Below are positions 36,526 through 46,058 of a stretch of 46,419 nucleotides of DNA, piece after piece. The notes beneath the pieces are model-generated. The model made no database searches. It was not told the origin of the DNA and was given only the letters and a program-made list of their open reading frames with translations. The number at the start of each line of letters is the position of its first letter. The first letter of the stretch is position 1. Source of the DNA: an uncultured Lachnospiraceae bacterium (GTDB lineage: Bacteria; Bacillota; Clostridia; Lachnospirales; Lachnospiraceae); the NCBI GenBank assembly GCA_934339135.1, contig CAKRHP010000021.1:1-46419 (forward strand), written 5' to 3'. The position numbers were made by a program, and so were the translations under genes.

Positions 36526-39500
36526 TTATATGCCGTTTTCAATGGATATCCTGCTGCCCTCCTTTGTCTTCTTTACCTTGATCTGCTGCGGGATATTCTC
36601 CATGAGCTCCTCTCTGTGGCTGATGATCCCCACCAGCTTATTGGCATCAGAAAGTCCCATCAGGCACTCCAAAGCATTGTCCATGGATCTGCGATCCAGA
36701 GTTCCGAAACCTTCGTCTACAAACAGGGCATCCATTTGAATGCCTCCCAGATTCGAAGAAACGGTATCCGACAATCCCAGAGCCAGACTGAGAGATGCCT
36801 TGAAACTCTCCCCTCCGGAAAGATTCCCCACCGGTCTCCGATGACCGGTATAGTTATCAAGCACCTCCAGATCCAGAAAATTGTTGCTTTTTTTGCCCAC
36901 GGTATCCTGCCGGTAAAGCTCATATTGTCCATCACTCATCGGAAGCAGACGGCGGTTCGCCGCAGCAATAATGCCGTCAAAGCCCGCTGCCTGAATATAC
37001 TGCTCCAACGTGATCTTTCCGTTTCCGGTCATACCTTTTACCAGATTATACAGTTTCCGGCAATGCTCATATTCTTTGCCTGCTGTTTCCAGCGTTTCCC
37101 TCTGCGCCGCGATATTGTCACGCTTCTCCGTGTTGATACGGATCCTGTTTTCAATAACATTGACGTTTTTGCGCAGGCATTCGACCTCTTCCATCTTCTC
37201 CCCACATACATTGTCCAGAATATCCATATCAATATATTCTTTTCCTGCAGCATCCTTGTGTGCCTGATCCAACTGCGCCTGATTCGTTTTTATTTCCTGT
37301 TCATATGCACTTATAATTTCTTCTGTGTCCGAAATCGCGGACTCCTCTGTCTTATAGGAAAGCATTTCCTCCACTGAAGTAAAGTGTTGTTCCTTCAATG
37401 CAAGTTCCAATTTTTCTTTCCACTCTTTTTCATCTGTCTGTTGATCCTGCAGGGCTTCCTCCTGTGTTGCCAGAGCCGACTGCAGCGATGTCACTTTATC
37501 ATCCGATTCCTTTTTCGTCTGCTCCGCCAATGAGATCGCATCCGTAATTTCCGCCACTGTCCCAAGCATTTTATCCATTTCTGCTTCCGCTGTCTCCCAG
37601 TTTTCAAACGGCAGCTCTTCCATAGTTTTCAGGGTGGCTGTCGTTTCGGAAACAGCTGCCACAGTCTTCTGCCGTCGCAGAGTCAGCTTTTCTCTTTCTT
37701 CCCGAAGCTGCTCCGTCTCCTCCCCCTGTGCCTTCTCAAGTGACTGCTGAAGCTTTTCCAGCTCTGTACAGGTCTTCGCCAATGCCATCTGTGCGCTTTG
37801 ATTTTCCTTTTTCTTTGTTTTCACAATATCCTGTACATCACAGAGCTGCTTTATAAGTGATTCTATATCTTTCTCCTCAGGTGTGATATCCAGCAAAGGA
37901 TTTTTGAGACATTTCACTATCTCTTTCCAAAGCTGTTCTTCTGTCCCCTGTAGCATGGTTTTGGCCTTTTCCGCCTCTGTATTGGCAGACTGCTTCTTTT
38001 GTTGAAGCTCCTCCTCCTTCTTCTGCAGTTTTTTGAACGTCTCCTCCGTAACAGACTGCTCCGGCAGCTTTGCCGGCTCCGGATGATGGGTAGAGCCACA
38101 TACCGGACATTTCTCCCCATCCTTCAGATTTTCTGCCAAAATACCGGCACGGCAGTTTTCCAAAATTCTCTCTGCCGCTTCCCGCTGCTCATGCGCCTCA
38201 TCATATTCCTGACGTACCGCCAGAAACATGTCCTGTTTTTCGGACAGACTTGTCTGATCCTTTTCCAGCTTCGGAAACTGTTCCTCCAGAATATCTGTAA
38301 TTTCTTCCTGAAGTTCATCGAGCTTTTCGCCCTGATTCTCCGCCTGTGCCAGCTCTGCCGGTGCCTCTTTATTTGTATTGATCTGCTCCTTCCAGGTCCG
38401 GATCTGCTCTGCCAGTGCCTGCTCCTGCTGAGCCAATGTTTTCTCATCCTGCTCCTGCCTGGTCTGCTCCTGCTGCAACTTTGCCAATGTGGCAGACAAC
38501 TGATCTCTTAGCTGATATTTTGTTTCTTCCTCTTTGATCTTATCCGCCCTCTTTTGTAATTCTTCTGCCTCCGGGCGTTTTTTCTGTACATTTTCCAGTT
38601 CTTCCCTGCATTCCTGCGCCTTCTGTTTTGCCGTTTCCAGCTTTTCCTCCTTGGACCGGAGCTGCTCCTTCGTCTGACGTATCTCCTGATCCTTTGCCGC
38701 CCAGGAAGCATATACCGGATAGGCTTCTCTGGTTGCAGATTTCTGCAGCACCAGCCGTCCCTTTAATGCCTCCATCTCCTCTTGTCTGTCTGCAAGCTCC
38801 TCCTGCTTCTTCTGCAGAGTGTCCCTCCGGGCAATAAAATCATTATTTATCTTTGCCATAGTAAGAGATGCCTGACATTCCTTGAGGTCTTTTTCTGCCT
38901 TTTTTAATACCTCTGTTTCTTCTTTATATTTCATGGTATCTGATGCGGTGATCCGTTCTAAAAGCGACAACATCTCATCAACATTCCATGCGCTGCCGGA
39001 CTCTTTTGCTTTTTCCTGCAGTTCAGAAAGCCCCTGCGCCAGACTACATTTCTCTGCAGCTTCCTCTTCCTTTTCACCCTCCGCATCTCCAAAATACTGG
39101 ATAATACTGTTTTCCACCGTATTTTTGATGCCAAAGCTTTGATTCATGCGATCTTTCAGCTTGTACTCAATGTTCTTATAAGGATCGGTCATAAAGATAG
39201 TACGAAGAATCTCTGTTCTCTGCTCTGTTTTTGCATTGAGCAGCTCCCAGAATTCTCCCTGCGCGATCATGGCAATCTGCTTAAACTGCTTGTCATTAAT
39301 ATGCAGCAGCTCCTCTACAGCGGCATTTACCTGTTTCACTCCCTCGACCGGTGACTGTCCCCGCTCCTGAAAAACTGCCCTTTCGTTTTCCGTGATCACA
39401 CCTGTGCCACGCTTTTTGGGTCTTTCGTAAGCCGGCTGACGTTTTACATGGTATTCCTTTCCCTGATGAGAAAAATAAAAATCCACGTAGCTTTCAACAC

Positions 39501-39723
39501 CCTCCCCGGCATATTCACTTCTTAAGTTTTTCGTATCTCTATATGTTCCACTGGTGGTTCCGTAAAGAGCAAAGCATATGGCATCAAATATCGTCGTTTT
39601 TCCTGCTCCGGTATCTCCGGAGATCAGAAAAAGTCCCTTATCCTCAAATTGTCCGAAATCAATCTCCGGCATTTTTTCACCGTAAGGGCCAAACCCACTG
39701 ATCAATAATTTAATCGGCTTCAT
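36526..39723 (-). CDS. sbcC: Exonuclease subunit SbcC (Rad50-like)
   Basis: 1065 residues, SMC-type ATPase of the SbcCD nuclease that opens hairpins and processes double-strand breaks. Walker A GDTGAGKTT (36-44), long coiled coils (about 200-500 and 560-850), zinc hook KCPVCGSTHHPEP near residue 535-540, ABC signature LSGGESFKASLSLALGL and Walker B ALFVDEGFGTLD. The ATG overlaps the end of sbcD by 14 nt, so translation is coupled. The C-terminal VGIISHREELMENIPQQIKV is the D-loop/H-loop region. No truncation. Confidence 0.97.
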   Translation of the reverse strand: MKPIKLLISGFGPYGEKMPEIDFGQFEDKGLFLISGDTGAGKTTIFDAICFALYGTTSGTYRDTKNLRSEYAGEGVESYVDFYFSHQGKEYHVKRQPAYERPKKRGTGVITENERAVFQERGQSPVEGVKQVNAAVEELLHINDKQFKQIAMIAQGEFWELLNAKTEQRTEILRTIFMTDPYKNIEYKLKDRMNQSFGIKNTVENSIIQYFGDAEGEKEEEAAEKCSLAQGLSELQEKAKESGSAWNVDEMLSLLERITASDTMKYKEETEVLKKAEKDLKECQASLTMAKINNDFIARRDTLQKKQEELADRQEEMEALKGRLVLQKSATREAYPVYASWAAKDQEIRQTKEQLRSKEEKLETAKQKAQECREELENVQKKRPEAEELQKRADKIKEEETKYQLRDQLSATLAKLQQEQTRQEQDEKTLAQQEQALAEQIRTWKEQINTNKEAPAELAQAENQGEKLDELQEEITDILEEQFPKLEKDQTSLSEKQDMFLAVRQEYDEAHEQREAAERILENCRAGILAENLKDGEKCPVCGSTHHPEPAKLPEQSVTEETFKKLQKKEEELQQKKQSANTEAEKAKTMLQGTEEQLWKEIVKCLKNPLLDITPEEKDIESLIKQLCDVQDIVKTKKKENQSAQMALAKTCTELEKLQQSLEKAQGEETEQLREEREKLTLRRQKTVAAVSETTATLKTMEELPFENWETAEAEMDKMLGTVAEITDAISLAEQTKKESDDKVTSLQSALATQEEALQDQQTDEKEWKEKLELALKEQHFTSVEEMLSYKTEESAISDTEEIISAYEQEIKTNQAQLDQAHKDAAGKEYIDMDILDNVCGEKMEEVECLRKNVNVIENRIRINTEKRDNIAAQRETLETAGKEYEHCRKLYNLVKGMTGNGKITLEQYIQAAGFDGIIAAANRRLLPMSDGQYELYRQDTVGKKSNNFLDLEVLDNYTGHRRPVGNLSGGESFKASLSLALGLSDTVSSNLGGIQMDALFVDEGFGTLDRRSMDNALECLMGLSDANKLVGIISHREELMENIPQQIKVKKTKEGSRISIENGI

Positions 39724-40867
39724 CCATCACACCTGCCTCTCTTGCCACCATCCGCATAATATCCATCTCTTCCTCACTGATCTCACATCCATAAATCTTA
39801 CTGTAAAAATCCGTGATCAGCTCCTCAAAGGATCTGTTTTCTGCAATTTTGGAAATATCAACCTGTTCCAGCTCCTTCGTATGGGAATTGTCATAATCAA
39901 TCTTAACAGTATTGGGATAAATCTGCTGGAAAATCCCCATGGCATCATTTACGATATCTTCATCCGTCAGTGTTGCATAGATGAAATCCTCTGTGTCCGT
40001 TACATTTTCTTTTTTTAGAAGCTGCTTAAGCTCTCCTTTTATATGACGCATGTCCCGCACAGGCTTCAAAGGGATCAGCTCAATGGATGTCTTTCCCTTC
40101 TCCTCCATAGTGATCACAGGCACTGACTTGCCATTCGCCACCTCACTCAGGGAATATTTCAACGGAGACCCGGAATACCGCACCTCCTCCCTTCCTATTT
40201 TTTGAGGAGAATGAATATGACCCAGTGCCACATAATCAAAATCTCTAAAACAGTCGTAACCGATCTTTTCCACCAGACCGACACTCTGTACACCCACGCC
40301 CTCGGATCCACTGATCACAGGATCCTCCGATTTTCCGATCACAAATTGATGTGCTGCGATCACATTCCGACGTGACCTGTCAATCCCTGCCTGCTCCAGA
40401 ACCGCCCTTACCGCATCATCATAATTTTCGATCTTTGCATCCGGCAGAAAATGTTTTACCTGTGACGCTTTTACAAAGGGCAGAAGATAAATATCTATCT
40501 CTCCGTAATCATCCGTTACCGTTTTTTTATACAGCGCCCCTTCATATTTTGCTGAAATATAGATCCGGTTCTTTTCAAAAAGATCACTTCCGTAATTCAG
40601 ACGCTCATCGGAATCATGGTTTCCGCTGATCATAAATGTCATGACACCGGATCCTGCAAGACTGCTCAAAAAATAATTTAGCAGCTTTGTCGCTGCTTCA
40701 CTTGGAACCGCCCTGTCATATACATCCCCTGCGATCAGTACCGCATCAACGGACTGATTTTTTACGATTTCCAATATCTGATCTAATATATATTTCTGAT
40801 CTCTGATCAGGTCAAAATCTCCCAGAGATTTTCCCAAATGCAGGTCCCCCAAATGCAAAAATTTCAT
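39710..40867 (-). CDS. sbcD: Exonuclease subunit SbcD (Mre11-like)
   Basis: 385 residues. The calcineurin-like phosphoesterase motifs are in order: HLGDLHLGK (D, H), LIAGDVYDRAVPS, ISGNHDSDERL, AAHQFVIG and DYVALGHIHSPQKIG. A C-terminal capping domain follows. ATG 40867 is preceded by AGGAG. It is the partner nuclease of SbcC, encoded first in the pair. The 269-bp gap before it holds the hsp20 terminator and a 15-bp direct repeat. Confidence 0.97.
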   Translation of the reverse strand: MKFLHLGDLHLGKSLGDFDLIRDQKYILDQILEIVKNQSVDAVLIAGDVYDRAVPSEAATKLLNYFLSSLAGSGVMTFMISGNHDSDERLNYGSDLFEKNRIYISAKYEGALYKKTVTDDYGEIDIYLLPFVKASQVKHFLPDAKIENYDDAVRAVLEQAGIDRSRRNVIAAHQFVIGKSEDPVISGSEGVGVQSVGLVEKIGYDCFRDFDYVALGHIHSPQKIGREEVRYSGSPLKYSLSEVANGKSVPVITMEEKGKTSIELIPLKPVRDMRHIKGELKQLLKKENVTDTEDFIYATLTDEDIVNDAMGIFQQIYPNTVKIDYDNSHTKELEQVDISKIAENRSFEELITDFYSKIYGCEISEEEMDIMRMVAREAGVMDEAD

Positions 40868-40920
40868 ACTCCTATTTCTCCTTTTTATATCGTGAATAAA
40901 AATGCTTAGGCATAAACTTA

Positions 40921-41016
40921 AAAAACTATGCTTTTCCTCACTCGCGGACGCGTTCATATCTATTGTACCATAAATTGGCAACACTTCAGCAAATGCTTCG
41001 TAAAAACTATGCTTTT
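40921..41016. repeat. 15-bp direct repeat upstream of sbcD
   Basis: AAAAACTATGCTTTT occurs at 40921-40935 and again at 41002-41016, 81 nt apart. Nothing else in the gap explains it; it could be a regulatory site or chance in AT-rich sequence. Confidence 0.4.
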
Positions 41017-41045
41017 ATAAATCCGCAATGACCCGGCGAAAATTT

Positions 41046-41084
41046 AAAAAGCCCCTGCGGGAGTTATAAAACTCTCACAGGGGC
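41046..41084 (-). terminator. Terminator of hsp20
   Basis: GCCCCTG/CAGGGGC with inner GAGAGTT/AACTCCC pairing, then TTTTTAAATTTT on the minus strand. Confidence 0.85.
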
Positions 41085-41136
41085 ACACATATGAAAGCGA
41101 TGGTTTATTTAACTTATTTGCACTTATCTATGACCT

Positions 41137-41580
41137 TTATCCCTCAATAGCTATGGTCTTTGTCTGCTCAACTGCAGGCTGTGGATCTTTCTTTGGAACA
41201 GAGATCTTCAGGATACCATCCTCAAACTTCGCTTTAATATCCTCCTCTGTCATATCCTCACCTACATAAAAGCTACGGCTGCAGCTTCCATAATATCTCT
41301 CACGGCGCAGGTACTTGCCACTCTTCTCATCCTTTTCGCCGTCCTCGGATTTCTTTTCAGCACTGATGGTCATATAACCATCCTTGAGCTCGGCCTTTAC
41401 ATCTTCCTTCTTATAACCCGGCAGATCAATATCAAGCTCATAACCGGCATCTGTCTCTTTCACATCGGTCTTCATGGCACTTGGTGTCGGGTTTGCATAA
41501 TGAATCACATTCATTGGTCTTGCGAAATCATCAAAAAAGTCATCAAATAAATTTTCTCCAAAAATACTAGGCATCAACAT
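41137..41580 (-). CDS. Hsp20/alpha-crystallin small heat shock protein
   Basis: 147 residues, an ATP-independent holdase that keeps unfolded proteins soluble. Alpha-crystallin domain from about residue 37 (MKTDVKETDAGYELDIDLPGYKKEDVKAEL) to FEDGILKISVPKK, which holds the conserved G-x-L/I; a C-terminal I-x-I anchor appears as TKTIAIEG. The N-terminus FGENLFDDFFDDF is the usual oligomerisation arm. ATG 41580 has GGAGG 8 nt upstream. The promoter carries a CIRCE operator, so HrcA repression is expected. Confidence 0.97.
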   Translation of the reverse strand: MLMPSIFGENLFDDFFDDFARPMNVIHYANPTPSAMKTDVKETDAGYELDIDLPGYKKEDVKAELKDGYMTISAEKKSEDGEKDEKSGKYLRRERYYGSCSRSFYVGEDMTEEDIKAKFEDGILKISVPKKDPQPAVEQTKTIAIEG

Positions 41581-41691
41581 AAGTCATTCCTCCTTCAATC
41601 AAACCTTATTGAACTGTTCTTCTCAGAGCAAGTAGGATGAAGTCCCGGTCATTTCTGACTTCCTATTACCTCTTCCCTTGTTCTGTAATAT

Positions 41692-41733
41692 GTTATACCA
41701 CTTCTGTTAGCACTCGTCAAGAGGGAGTGCTAA
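41692..41733 (-). promoter_or_regulatory. CIRCE operator and promoter of hsp20
   Basis: CIRCE: TTAGCACTC (41707-41715), N9, GAGTGCTAA (41725-41733), exact consensus arms. On the minus strand the -35 TTGACG (41715-41720) lies inside the operator and -10 TATAAC (41692-41697) follows at 17 nt, so HrcA would block the polymerase directly. Confidence 0.93.
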
Positions 41734-41759
41734 CAATTTTTGTGAAAATTTTGTGAACC

Positions 41760-42545
41760 CTAATGAAACTCCGTCATATGCTTCCGATAATGTAGCGGTA
41801 AATTGTTTCTCTGCAGTCCTGCATTCTCTCGTTCCTTAATGACTATGCTGTCAAAGAACGCTTTCCACAGGTCTGCATACTCCTGTCCGCCACTGTGTTC
41901 CAGCTCATCTAACACCTGACACTCCTCCGGTTCCAGCTTACGCAGATACCATTTCCTTCCGGGATTATGAAACGCTGCTTTTCCATGGCTCTTATCATAG
42001 ACAATGAACCATTCCGGATTCAAACGGTCTGTAAAATGGTCTGCAACCATATCGATCACCTCATTCTCCGGTTCGATCACTGCATACAATACGGGATGAT
42101 CCTGCCAGGATATTTCCTCAAACCGTATAAACTCAAGGAAGTAGTGTGCCTCATTCCTTGCTTTACGGTAAATCTCAAACATCCTCTGGACACAGGGAAT
42201 ATGAAGTGCCTCCGTCACCTTACTGCCCAACGCAAAACCATATACGATAAAATGATAGATCACATCTGCCTTATCCGGCTGGCGGCTCCCTGCTGCCACC
42301 ATAATATACTCATATGCCTGCTGCGAGATCTGCCGCCGGACGGTGCGCAGCACTTTTGTCATCTTGTCCGCATCCGGTGTCACATCCACATATTCCGAAA
42401 ACAAAGTGTAATTCTGCTCTGCCTCCGGCATATTTACCTCCAGTCGGATATGGTCATGTCCATATGCAGATTTCCCCGCATCATAAACAGCCGTAAAGAT
42501 GGCCTCCGGTGTATCATCACACCGGTATATTCTCATTTCTTTCAT
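41760..42545 (-). CDS. TIGR03915-family DNA repair/metabolism protein
   Basis: About 261 residues, matching the TIGR03915 family that is nearly always encoded next to the radical SAM protein described below. Typical segments: RIYRCDDTPEAIFTAVYDAGKSAYGHDHIRL at the N-terminus, YEYIMVAAGSRQPDKADVIYHFIVYGF in the middle and RKWYLRKLEPEECQVLDELE before a C-terminal KAFFDSIVIKERENAGLQRNNLPLHYRKHMTEF. Function is unproven; DNA damage handling is inferred from partners. The start at 42545 is not certain (ribosome site GGAGG is 13 nt away, GGGGA 2 nt). It lies 114 nt after the radical SAM gene with no terminator visible. Confidence 0.88.
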   Translation of the reverse strand: MKEMRIYRCDDTPEAIFTAVYDAGKSAYGHDHIRLEVNMPEAEQNYTLFSEYVDVTPDADKMTKVLRTVRRQISQQAYEYIMVAAGSRQPDKADVIYHFIVYGFALGSKVTEALHIPCVQRMFEIYRKARNEAHYFLEFIRFEEISWQDHPVLYAVIEPENEVIDMVADHFTDRLNPEWFIVYDKSHGKAAFHNPGRKWYLRKLEPEECQVLDELEHSGGQEYADLWKAFFDSIVIKERENAGLQRNNLPLHYRKHMTEFH

Positions 42546-42659
42546 TGTCCCCGGATAACCTCCATTCCCCTGCCATCTGCACCACAGCAAATAATATAAT
42601 CATACTATTTTCTAAATACAATGCTTGTCTCATAATCCATAAATCAAGCAGCTGTTATA

Positions 42660-44372
42660 CTAGTCTGCATCTACCGCAAAATCAAACAGTGACAACTGCT
42701 GATAATGGATCTGGCTCTGCTGATAATATCGCTGCAACTCCTTTTCCTCCCCTACCAGCCGTCTCGTGATAAAATCTTCATCCACCTTGAGAAAGTCATA
42801 CATCATCCTGCCGTTACACGTAATAAAATACACTGCTCTCTTTAATACCACCCCCATTTTTTTCAGATGTGAATAGTCCAGAGAACCTGTCCTTCTCGCC
42901 TTCACGATCCGGCTGGCAGACTTTACACCGATCCCCGGCACACGCAATAATGTATCATAATCCGCAGTATTGATCTCTACCGGAAAGGACTCCATATGCC
43001 CCAGTGCCCAGTCGCATTTCGGATCAAGAAATACATTGAAATTGGGTCTGGATGGCGACAACAGCTCCCCTGCCTCAAAGCCGTAGTACCGCAGTAAAAA
43101 ATCTGCCTGATACAACCGATGCTCCCGTCGCAGAGGCGGTCCGCTCTCCAACGCAGGAAGAGAGGCATCCTGATTCACATTGATAAACGCCGAATAAAAC
43201 ACCCTCTTGAGATCAAATCTCTGATATAACGCCTCCGAGACAGACATGATCTCATAATCACTCTCCCCTCCGGCACCGATGATCATCTGTGTACTCTGTC
43301 CCGCCGGCACAAATCCTCGGTTCGTATCATGATGCCGCCACTGGGTCAGCCCCGCCGTCCCGGCAGAGGAAGGGAGATAAAGATCATCCGTCACAACCTT
43401 CTGCCGATCCGCAGCCTCCTTCATAATATCTTTACTGTCGTTCTGACCTTGCCCGGCCTCCGACTCCTTCTGCAAGCCCCCCGGCTTCCCTGTCCCCCGC
43501 GTCTTACAGGCTCTGTCGGATGTCCCAGTCAATCCCACCGCCTCCGATGCAGTCCGGCTATAACCCGATATACCCTGTTTCTCTGCCTTTGGGGTATCCT
43601 CTCTGTGTCCTGCTCTGCCTGATATATCCTGCAGTCCCGTCAGCTTCGGCGCGCCCGCCCTCTGGCTGATCCCATCCGGCATGCTTCTCCCCAGCCTGCG
43701 GCTGGTATGCCAGTAGGCACTGCGATTACCCCCCTTCATCCCAAGTGCCTGTCTGCTTTCCTCCATTCCTGACTGAATCTGACGCATAGGTGTCAAAATC
43801 TGCCTGCGGTCCTTATTGGGCGCAAGCTGACGCAGGCCGTCCGCCGTAGGAAGCTCCATATTTACACTCATACGATCCGCATACCAACCTGCCAGTTCCA
43901 CTAACTCCGGTGAAGCCCCCGGTATCGCCTTGCAATGGATATAGCCATGGAACCGGTGAATCGTCCGGAGATCATGAAGTGTCTGACAGATCAATTCCAT
44001 CGTATGATCGGCTGACTGTATGATCCCGGAGCTCAGAAAAAGACCTTCTATATAATTTCTCCGGTAAAACTCCATCGTCAGCTCGCAAACCTCCTCCGGA
44101 GTAAACGTCGCTCTGGGAACATCGTTGGTCACGCGATTAATACAATATTTGCAATTATAGATACATTCATTGGTAAACAGAATCTTTAACAAAGAAATGC
44201 ATCTCCCATCCGCCGAGAAGCTGTGACAGATCCCCGCCGCACTTGTATTTCCTATCTGCCCATCCTTCCCCTTCCGGGAAACTCCACTGGAGGTACAGGC
44301 AACATCATACTTCGCCGCATCCGATAATATCCGCAGCTTCTCCTCCAGAGACGCATGCTCCGCAAAGATCAT
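42660..44372 (-). CDS. Putative DNA modification/repair radical SAM protein with large insertion
   Basis: 570 residues against about 420 normally. Radical SAM cluster motif C-x3-C-x2-C is in NECIYNCKYC (about residue 70-77 from this start); CISLLKILFTN, NDVPRATFTPEEV, YIEGLFLSSGI, HCKAIPGASPEL, MSVNMELPTADGL and FVPAGQSTQMIIGA are family blocks. A C-terminal helix-hairpin-helix (RVPGIGVKSASRIVKARR) suggests DNA binding. Residues about 213-349 (43326-43736) are an extra Gly/Ser/Arg-rich low-complexity stretch interrupting the SAM barrel between QALGMKGGN and HHDTNRGFVPAG. ATG 44372 has AGAGGAG 9 nt upstream. A LexA-type box overlaps the start of the transcript. Reaction unknown. Confidence 0.9.
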   Translation of the reverse strand: MIFAEHASLEEKLRILSDAAKYDVACTSSGVSRKGKDGQIGNTSAAGICHSFSADGRCISLLKILFTNECIYNCKYCINRVTNDVPRATFTPEEVCELTMEFYRRNYIEGLFLSSGIIQSADHTMELICQTLHDLRTIHRFHGYIHCKAIPGASPELVELAGWYADRMSVNMELPTADGLRQLAPNKDRRQILTPMRQIQSGMEESRQALGMKGGNRSAYWHTSRRLGRSMPDGISQRAGAPKLTGLQDISGRAGHREDTPKAEKQGISGYSRTASEAVGLTGTSDRACKTRGTGKPGGLQKESEAGQGQNDSKDIMKEAADRQKVVTDDLYLPSSAGTAGLTQWRHHDTNRGFVPAGQSTQMIIGAGGESDYEIMSVSEALYQRFDLKRVFYSAFINVNQDASLPALESGPPLRREHRLYQADFLLRYYGFEAGELLSPSRPNFNVFLDPKCDWALGHMESFPVEINTADYDTLLRVPGIGVKSASRIVKARRTGSLDYSHLKKMGVVLKRAVYFITCNGRMMYDFLKVDEDFITRRLVGEEKELQRYYQQSQIHYQQLSLFDFAVDAD

Positions 44373-44399
44373 TCCTATCATCTCCTCTCAAACACATAT

Positions 44400-44445
44400 C
44401 GAACATTTGTTCTATTATAATACACTCGTCCCGGATTTGTGTCAA
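44400..44445 (-). promoter_or_regulatory. LexA-type SOS box and promoter of the radical SAM gene
   Basis: Minus-strand -35 TTGACA (44440-44445), 17-nt spacer, -10 TATTAT (44417-44422). CGAACATTTGTTCT (plus strand 44400-44413) follows at the transcription start and fits the Firmicute LexA consensus CGAACRNRYGTTYC at 12 of 14 positions, with perfect GAACA/TGTTC arms. Repression by LexA and induction by DNA damage are predicted. The rest of the 386-bp gap to the Rpn gene has only its possible promoter. Confidence 0.8.
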
Positions 44446-44605
44446 GAGGAAAAAGCTGGAAAGTACGGGTTTTACTTTTCTTTGTCAACAATCGCCAAAA
44501 ATCACTCCGCAATCTATAAAAACCGCACCATATAATATTAATTTTTTCTTTATAATTATGTAATCCCTTATAAAATGCCTGTGACAGATTTAGTGACAAT
44601 GTCAA

Positions 44606-44635
44606 TAGACAGCCGTATGTAATGCGTACTATGAT
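44606..44635 (+). promoter_or_regulatory. Possible promoter of the Rpn-type gene
   Basis: -35 TAGACA (44606-44611), 18-nt spacer, -10 TATGAT (44630-44635) on the plus strand, with a leader of about 115 nt. Confidence 0.4.
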
Positions 44636-44758
44636 GATATGTACAACTGGAAACATCAGATTCGCAAATAATAAATTCTGAGATAAATCTTAAAAGGTAA
44701 AATTCCAAATCACAAATCGTTTCTGAAAAAGCATATCGCAAAGTGGAGGTATTACATT

Positions 44759-45577
44759 ATGACAAAAGCATATGAAGAATTAGAACTGCAGGATGATTTT
44801 ATGTTCGGAGTGATCATGCGTAACCCGAAATACTGTAAACCATTTTTGGAAACAATCCTCGGGATCAAGATCCGCAGGTTGGAGTATCCGGAGAGCCAGA
44901 AGACCATCGACCTGTCCGCAGGAGCCAAAGGAGTGCGACTGGATGTTTATGTGGAGGATGAGAATAATACCGTATTTGATATGGAGATGCAGGTACATAT
45001 CAAACGCAATCTGGCGAAACGAATGCGATATTATCAGGGAATGATTGATCTGAATATCTTAGAAAAGGGAGGCGATTATAACGAATTAAAAAAGAGCTAT
45101 GTCATTTTTATCTGCACCTTTGACCCCTATGGTCAGGGGCGTCATCTGTACAGTTTCGAGTACCTGTGTAATCAAGATCCATCGTTGACATTTGGAGATG
45201 AGACCATTAAAATTATTCTAAATACGAAAGGAACGATGGACGATGTGAGTCCGGAAATGAAACGGTTGTTAGAATATATTGATGGCCAGGCTGCAAGTGA
45301 TGAGTTTACGAGAGAACTGGATGATGCGGTGCAGTCTGTTCGCCGAAATGAGAAATGGAGGCTTGATTATATGACACTGCAGCAGGAATATCGTGAAAAA
45401 TATAATGAGGGGCTGGAAGCCGGAAAAATCGAAGGAAAGCTTGAGGGAAAGATGGAAGGAAAAATAGAACTTCTCTATTTAGATTTCCAATTAACAATCC
45501 CGGAGATTGCGCGAAAGCTGGAATTGTCTGAGAAATATGTGCAAGGGATTGTGAAAGAAATCGAAGATAAAAAATGA
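44759..45577 (+). CDS. Rpn family recombination-promoting nuclease / PD-(D/E)XK transposase-like protein
   Basis: 272 residues. N-terminal KAYEELELQDDFMFGVIMRNPKYCKPFLETILG is the family's entry motif; the nuclease core has RLDVYVED (D62) and FDMEMQ (E76-x-Q78), the D...ExQ variant of PD-(D/E)XK. The C-terminus has four short GK(I/L/M)EGK-type repeats (about 222-236) that likely form a charged helix, then an HTH-like LTIPEIARKLELSEKYVQGIVKEI. Rpn proteins cut DNA and raise recombination in E. coli; they are spread by transfer and are common in gut Clostridia. GGAGG is 9 nt before ATG. Converges with the glycosylase gene, 4 nt between stops. Confidence 0.92.
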   Translation: MTKAYEELELQDDFMFGVIMRNPKYCKPFLETILGIKIRRLEYPESQKTIDLSAGAKGVRLDVYVEDENNTVFDMEMQVHIKRNLAKRMRYYQGMIDLNILEKGGDYNELKKSYVIFICTFDPYGQGRHLYSFEYLCNQDPSLTFGDETIKIILNTKGTMDDVSPEMKRLLEYIDGQAASDEFTRELDDAVQSVRRNEKWRLDYMTLQQEYREKYNEGLEAGKIEGKLEGKMEGKIELLYLDFQLTIPEIARKLELSEKYVQGIVKEIEDKK

Positions 45578-45581
45578 TAAA

Positions 45582-46058
45582 TCACTCCCGTATCACCCGC
45601 CACGCCTCCACAAGCCGTTCCATTCCCCAAGCAGCATTGGCAGGACTGGTAGACGGCAGGCACACCGCCTCGATCCCGGTCTGTTTTGCCTGATATTTTC
45701 GATACAACTGCTCCGCCTTTTTGCCATTGACATAGATCCGGCGGATCGGTGCCTGCGCCAGAACCTCACTCAGATCCGTAGGCACTACATCCTTAATGCT
45801 GCTGTCTGCTGAACCCTGAATCTCACAGGATGCGATCACATCCCAAACCGCCACACCATTCCTTAACAAAAACTCTTTCTTTTCCTCGACAGTCTGTGGC
45901 ACCTCATTGCCATATACCGCAGCGAGTACCCGCCAGAAACGATTTTGCGGATGCCCATAGAAAAATCCCTGTTCTCTGGATTTCACAGAGGGAAAGCTCC
46001 CCAGAATTAAAATATTAGAATGATCGTCATAAACCGGTGCTATAGGATGCTGTATCAT
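45582..46058 (-). CDS. Hypoxanthine (deoxyinosine)-DNA glycosylase, UDG family 6
   Basis: 158 residues. NILILGSFPSVKSREQGFFYGHPQNRFWRVLAAV is the active-site block of the HDG family in the uracil-glycosylase superfamily, and LPSTSPANAAW is the later minor-groove loop. It removes hypoxanthine arising from adenine deamination and starts base-excision repair. It stands close to the radical SAM/TIGR03915 pair, whose families are known to be associated with UDG-superfamily proteins. The ATG at 46058 lacks a clear ribosome binding site (AAAGGTTTGTGGC upstream has AAAGG at 8 nt). Confidence 0.93.
   Translation of the reverse strand: MIQHPIAPVYDDHSNILILGSFPSVKSREQGFFYGHPQNRFWRVLAAVYGNEVPQTVEEKKEFLLRNGVAVWDVIASCEIQGSADSSIKDVVPTDLSEVLAQAPIRRIYVNGKKAEQLYRKYQAKQTGIEAVCLPSTSPANAAWGMERLVEAWRVIRE

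Follow-up and report, generated by a model that had tools for sequence, protein, structure and literature searches.

The stretch of Lachnospiraceae DNA analysed here (46,419 nucleotides, hereafter the window) carries on its minus strand a radical SAM gene of the family TIGR03916 at 42660..44372 (NCBIfam 660.1 bits, cut-off 343.5). The longest open frame of this gene starts at 44381 and encodes 573 amino acids, but translation likely begins at ATG 44372 instead, which gives a protein of 570 amino acids. The Shine-Dalgarno-like sequence GAGAGGAG (44382..44389, minus strand) directly adjoins 44381 and has good spacing for 44372. A length of 570 amino acids is found in 29 of the 30 closest homologs among the matches listed, which fits ATG 44372, and four other homologs in the top 34 of the matches listed have 573. 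The protein contains a CxxxCxxC motif (C73, C77 and C80, codons 73-80 of the 573-aa frame; 44142..44165, minus strand), seen across 181 aligned orthologs in which conservation likewise reaches 98% or more at C29, C52, H53 and C61, and a helix-hairpin-helix (HhH) domain at residues 467-498 (42888..42983, minus strand; Pfam PF12836, 28.8 bits, cut-off 27). Together with the curated score, these two features place it in TIGR03916, which was its sole NCBIfam match at E 0.001; the general Pfam Radical_SAM model scored 25.0, below the cut-off of 29.5. A 90-residue linker inside the protein (codons 239-328; 43398..43667, minus strand) is absent from most aligned orthologs, its columns being occupied in fewer than 30% of the 181.

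On the same strand, a TIGR03915/DUF4130 gene runs from ATG 42545 (41760..42545; NCBIfam 216.6 bits, cut-off 112.25; Pfam PF13566), with its longest frame beginning at TTG 42590. The curated score assigns its product to TIGR03915, and the gene is also recognized by its adjacency in relatives, adjoining the radical SAM gene in at least 145 of the 164 loci with room for it and in more with corrected starts. Four residues of TIGR03915 are invariant (R141, R174, R239 and E259), all of them in the second half of the protein. Tentatively, the family resembles DHH/DHHA1 phosphoesterases, in predicted fold only; metal motif and profile similarity do not place it among them. A DHH motif was not found in the TIGR03915 consensus, hhalign against RecJ and NrnA sets gave a probability below 1% (with small template alignments and a LexA negative control that was empty, at 0 sequences), and an alignment-free structure prediction was uninformative, with a pLDDT of 49.

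The pair lies in a repair-type cluster at 36526-46058 that comprises sbcC, sbcD, the pair itself and a deoxyinosine glycosylase gene, with an Rpn-type gene in between. Among 80 orthologous loci with short flanks, only L001 and L002 contain relatives of these neighbours. We considered sbcDC and the deoxyinosine glycosylase as conserved partners and rejected both, given that sbcD was found at 1 and the glycosylase at 2 of the 80 loci, within at most 3 kb on each side.

A candidate LexA (SOS) box, reading AGAACAAATGTTCG on the minus strand and CGAACATTTGTTCT on the plus strand, occupies 44400..44413, over the expected transcript start of the radical SAM gene. The original prediction had placed a palindrome at the predicted transcript start, behind a TTGACA-17-TATTAT promoter, and this arrangement is borne out at 44413-44400 on the minus strand. 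The -35 element TTGACA (44440..44445) and the -10 element TATTAT (44417..44422), both assigned by sequence match on the minus strand and separated by a 17-nt spacer, agree with consensus at 11 of 12 letters. The hexamers alone carry little weight, because 44300-44800 contains three promoter-like sites compared with a mean of 1.8 in shuffled sequence. The box begins 3 nt past the -10 element, and the expected transcript start therefore lies within it; it is 27 nt ahead of the likely start codon (44372). It matches a CGAACN4GTTCG-like palindrome at 9 of 10 consensus letters and at all 8 letters of the core, and CGAACNNNNGTTC has its sole copy in the whole window here. By itself, the pattern is modest evidence: strict CGAACN4GTTC occurs once in the window, and shuffled windows contain a mean of 0.21 matches, with one or more in 17 of 100. 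For a 250-nt promoter region, simple arithmetic (0.21/46,419 x 250) puts the chance of the pattern at approximately 0.001. The case for the predicted box is carried by position and conservation, not by the bare pattern. With a matrix whose training set was 74 boxes in 78 orthologs (L003-L080, with the window, L001 and L002 excluded), the window box ranks first at 21.8 bits and the runner-up scores 12.4; none of 60 Markov sequences of window length reached 21.8 bits.

LexA scores over its cut-off in both sister genomes, G001, the closest relative (locus L001; 89-95% DNA identity in four matched stretches, of which the three longest reach 93-95%), and G002, the next. The same holds for 26 of 28 genomes in one set and for 88 of 90 in a phylum-wide sample (G001 scored separately). 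The pattern GAACN4GTTC occurs 14 times in G001 and 17 times in G002, and the backwards pattern 59 and 36 times, respectively. The matrix divides these 31 sites sharply, with 13 scoring at least 16 and the other 18 at most 13.2. Six of the high sites are in G001 and seven in G002, and five are common to both, preceding recA, recN, a LysM gene of YneA type next to lexA, a gene for an ABC transporter and the radical SAM operon. A family search identified recA in both sister genomes. The recN gene of G001 was named from its NCBIfam score (390.9 bits; the cut-off of 407.85 was missed because the piece fetched is truncated), and that of G002 by similarity. For the YneA-like gene, the name comes from NCBIfam in G001 (50.8 bits, below the cut-off of 60) and, in the two genomes alike, from Pfam LysM. 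The ABC transporter gene has a Pfam match in G002 and was named by similarity in G001. Where a high site occurs in a single genome, it lies near a DUF5688 gene, near a gene of Schlafen/AlbA type, or with a DUF402 gene on one side and a gene with no Pfam match on the other; the sites near the DUF5688 and Schlafen/AlbA-type genes fall within short open frames. The SOS box of the ABC transporter gene (L111, L134) scores like that of recA in both sister genomes.

Orthologs in other lineages were sampled from 23 plasmid records, selected for spread out of 158 that matched; ten phage records also matched, and both families were found in a Caulobacter control genome. All 15 alphaproteobacterial loci have GAACN7GAAC at most 43 nt from the annotated start or, where there is none, the matched start. 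The motif has 16 copies in the 66,806 bases of these loci, 15 at the start and one elsewhere in the Thioclava locus, and it ranks at the top of 3328 direct-repeat patterns (15/15 loci). Both Caballeronia loci have CTGTN8ACAG. We take GAACN7GAAC to be the LexA motif of Alphaproteobacteria and CTGTN8ACAG that of the group to which Caballeronia belongs. Six of the 23 plasmid loci (Acinetobacter, Fusobacterium, Bacteroides, Spirosoma, Acetoanaerobium and Gemmatirosa) have no exact match to the motifs tested; Acinetobacter is not known to have a LexA, which would fit the missing motif there. Of the 18 proteobacterial records, 12 annotate the second gene as UdgX family, and both of the alphaproteobacterial UdgX-annotated proteins that we scanned contain TIGR03915 followed by TIGR03914.

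These data bear on the strongest rival explanation, that the palindrome is bound not by LexA but by a different repressor whose half-site is GAAC-N4-GTTC. LexA binding at the box is something that we infer, and equally good boxes in the sister genomes are found near the ABC transporter, DUF5688, Schlafen/AlbA-type and Pfam-less genes. However, in the two sister genomes recA, recN and the YneA-like gene are each preceded by a box of the same type, and in Alphaproteobacteria and Caballeronia the operon carries the LexA motif of the respective group. A repressor other than LexA is improbable.

Conservation of the box was assessed in two sets of orthologs. The first (80-set) comprises loci nearest to the query, the best 80 of 326, and is the source of the matrix training boxes. 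The second (91-set) covers the phylum to which G001 belongs, with one over-cut-off match for each of 91 of 398 evenly drawn genomes; L251, being partial, and L252, which scored below cut-off, were left out. By 40-mer comparison the sets overlap in genome G001 only, and four near-duplicate pairs remain in the 91-set and five in the 80-set. We scanned from -250 to +10 relative to refitted starts, of which 67 were moved; for 31 of the 174 census rows, among which the window is counted, refitting was not possible and the first start was retained. A matrix score of at least 12 is reached upstream in 79 of the 80 nearest orthologs and in 74 of 91 phylum-wide (17 score below 12), compared with 3/80 and 0/91 for in-gene controls and 2/80 and 1/91 for the upstream stretch read backwards. 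The exact core is present upstream in 54/80 and 22/91, and at least 7 of its 8 letters in 78/80 and 64/91. The palindrome predicted for orthologous promoters is thus mostly kept. Two or more boxes scoring 12 lie within 300 nt in 54 of the 80 loci (L001-L080), and 40 of the 56 spacings between them measure 56-61 nt; nine of the 91-set have two, and the window has one.

In a scan of 3328 combinations of half-site and spacer, the top-ranking upstream patterns of either set were GAAC-N4 and shifted versions of it. After removal of near-duplicate promoters (75/80 and 82/90 kept, L175 left out), exact GAAC-N4 was found upstream in 47/75 and 19/82 and inside genes in 3/75 and 0/82; the form AACA-N2 was found upstream in 56/75 and 36/82. 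Allowing one mismatch raises GAAC-N4 to 71/75 and 55/82 upstream, but these counts are weaker evidence because in-gene matches are also frequent (20/75 and 18/82), and other patterns that are fixed inside genes by coding conservation reach up to 73/75 and 60/82. Only the exact and matrix counts discriminate well. Alignment of ten promoters shows the box as their sole long conserved block, between diverged flanks.

The same census bears on two further rivals. The box could control the divergent Rpn-type gene (44759-45577), which lies on its opposite side, instead of the radical SAM gene. Yet the start of that gene is approximately 345 nt from the box, and an Rpn relative is present in L001 only among the 80 loci, nearly all of which have the box, so we regard this arrangement as very improbable. 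Chance could also have produced a palindrome in this AT-rich promoter, as the bare pattern in 17 of 100 window shuffles might suggest, but such an origin of the box is hardly credible given its presence in 79/80 and 74/91 orthologs compared with 0-3 in controls and its retention within otherwise diverged promoters.

Variation within the phylum was examined on an ortholog tree of 86 of the 91 rows, with box labels set at a matrix score of 12. The box occurs on both sides of the midpoint root, with 11 changes compared with a mean of 14.8 after shuffling. In 28 of 86 genomes with a good LexA match there is no 7-of-8 core within 200 nt; some of these missing cores are due to misplaced starts or variant boxes. 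The LexA match is weak or absent in five genomes, and in four of these there is no box (Fisher p 0.05, uncorrected, with the five picked by eye); the tie between box presence and LexA strength is borderline. Seven genomes (L225-L231) have GAATNNNNRTTY, a variant SOS-like box, at the radical SAM gene, and similar sequence with T-rich second halves precedes lexA in the same seven (L282-L287, L290). In a clade of four genomes (support 100/99), the radical SAM gene lacks the box and the TIGR03915 gene has been relocated to a position directly behind queC (L344:598-2171, L345:2623-3988, L346:2009-3502 and L347:550-2133); no box was found before the relocated gene or before queC in this clade. The position behind queC may point to a link with 7-deazaguanine chemistry or may reflect a single chance move.

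Predicted LexA control of the TIGR03916-TIGR03915 pair is the best-supported reading of the locus and, judged from sequence comparison, very probably correct. The SOS-box reading is supported by a box kept in orthologs and by LexA and a recA box of the same type in both sister genomes. Under LexA control the two genes would form an SOS operon, presumably co-transcribed, in which a LexA dimer on the box behind the -10 element would cover the transcript start and block RNA polymerase. RecA on single-stranded DNA would trigger LexA self-cleavage, and the pair would then be made. The radical SAM protein, with its CxxxCxxC cluster, three further conserved cysteines and HhH domain, may act on a damaged DNA base through a 5'-deoxyadenosyl radical, repairing or modifying it, and TIGR03915 may be its DNA-handling partner. 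A bolder version, which we consider possible but unlikely, is that the pair is an old, widespread SOS effector under three LexA motifs with an undescribed radical-based repair step, in which TIGR03915 would be a DHH-fold protein, now without its catalytic metal site, that presents the lesion.

Because the box type matches the lineage, we argue that SOS control is part of the function of the pair. This ties a large, uncharacterised repair-enzyme pair of gut anaerobes to the DNA-damage response and makes a knockout under SOS-inducing damage a focused experiment. The original prediction had also expected SOS control to indicate which lesions to test. Here it went too far, as the box tells when the pair is made and not which lesion it acts on.

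SOS control of such pairs is of a known kind, predicted earlier elsewhere. In this comparison, we take COG4277 to be the radical SAM/HhH family. The present analysis upholds predicted SOS control of both families, but not as a new idea, since two earlier papers already contain such predictions (PMC3828012, PMC8565304). In C. acetobutylicum, CAC3343-CAC3344 were predicted in 2013 to be LexA targets on the basis of footprinting and expression data (PMC3828012); like the window pair, they consist of an identically annotated radical SAM gene and a second gene of unknown function. That prediction concerns one Clostridium, whereas ours concerns Lachnospiraceae with a phylum-wide census. The same paper also gives sbcDC as a predicted LexA target (PMC3828012), whereas no other site in the window exceeds 12.4 bits. 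An SOS-linked uracil-DNA glycosylase (UDG) operon, COG1573-COG4277, was described in Bacteroidetes in 2021, with Verrucomicrobia and Caulobacter also cited (PMC8565304). It resembles the window pair as an SOS-linked operon and differs in its LexA motifs (GGA-N5-TCC and CTAA-N5-TTAG) and its UDG partner (PMC8565304).

Other radical SAM proteins have been linked to the SOS response. The spore photoproduct lyase SplB, a radical SAM repair protein, is described as SOS-regulated in several species (PMC8565304), and the Gram-positive core SOS regulon is reported to include an unnamed radical SAM protein (PMC7739468). No spore photoproduct lyase was found among the NCBIfam (E 0.001) or solved-structure matches of the window protein. 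DUF4130 has been described as an enzyme predicted to take part in mutagenesis and as having links to radical SAM proteins and UDGs (PMC3765255). In the two alphaproteobacterial proteins that we scanned, TIGR03915 is followed by a fused UdgX domain (TIGR03914); the window TIGR03915 protein, unlike those, has no UdgX domain by NCBIfam. Within one open-licence library, we found no papers naming TIGR03916, TIGR03915, or UdgX together with radical SAM, and the Lachnospiraceae case, the census and the three-motif comparison were not found in print. To the control already predicted elsewhere, our analysis adds the census, the match across three LexA motifs, the double operators and a tentative DHH-like fold for TIGR03915.
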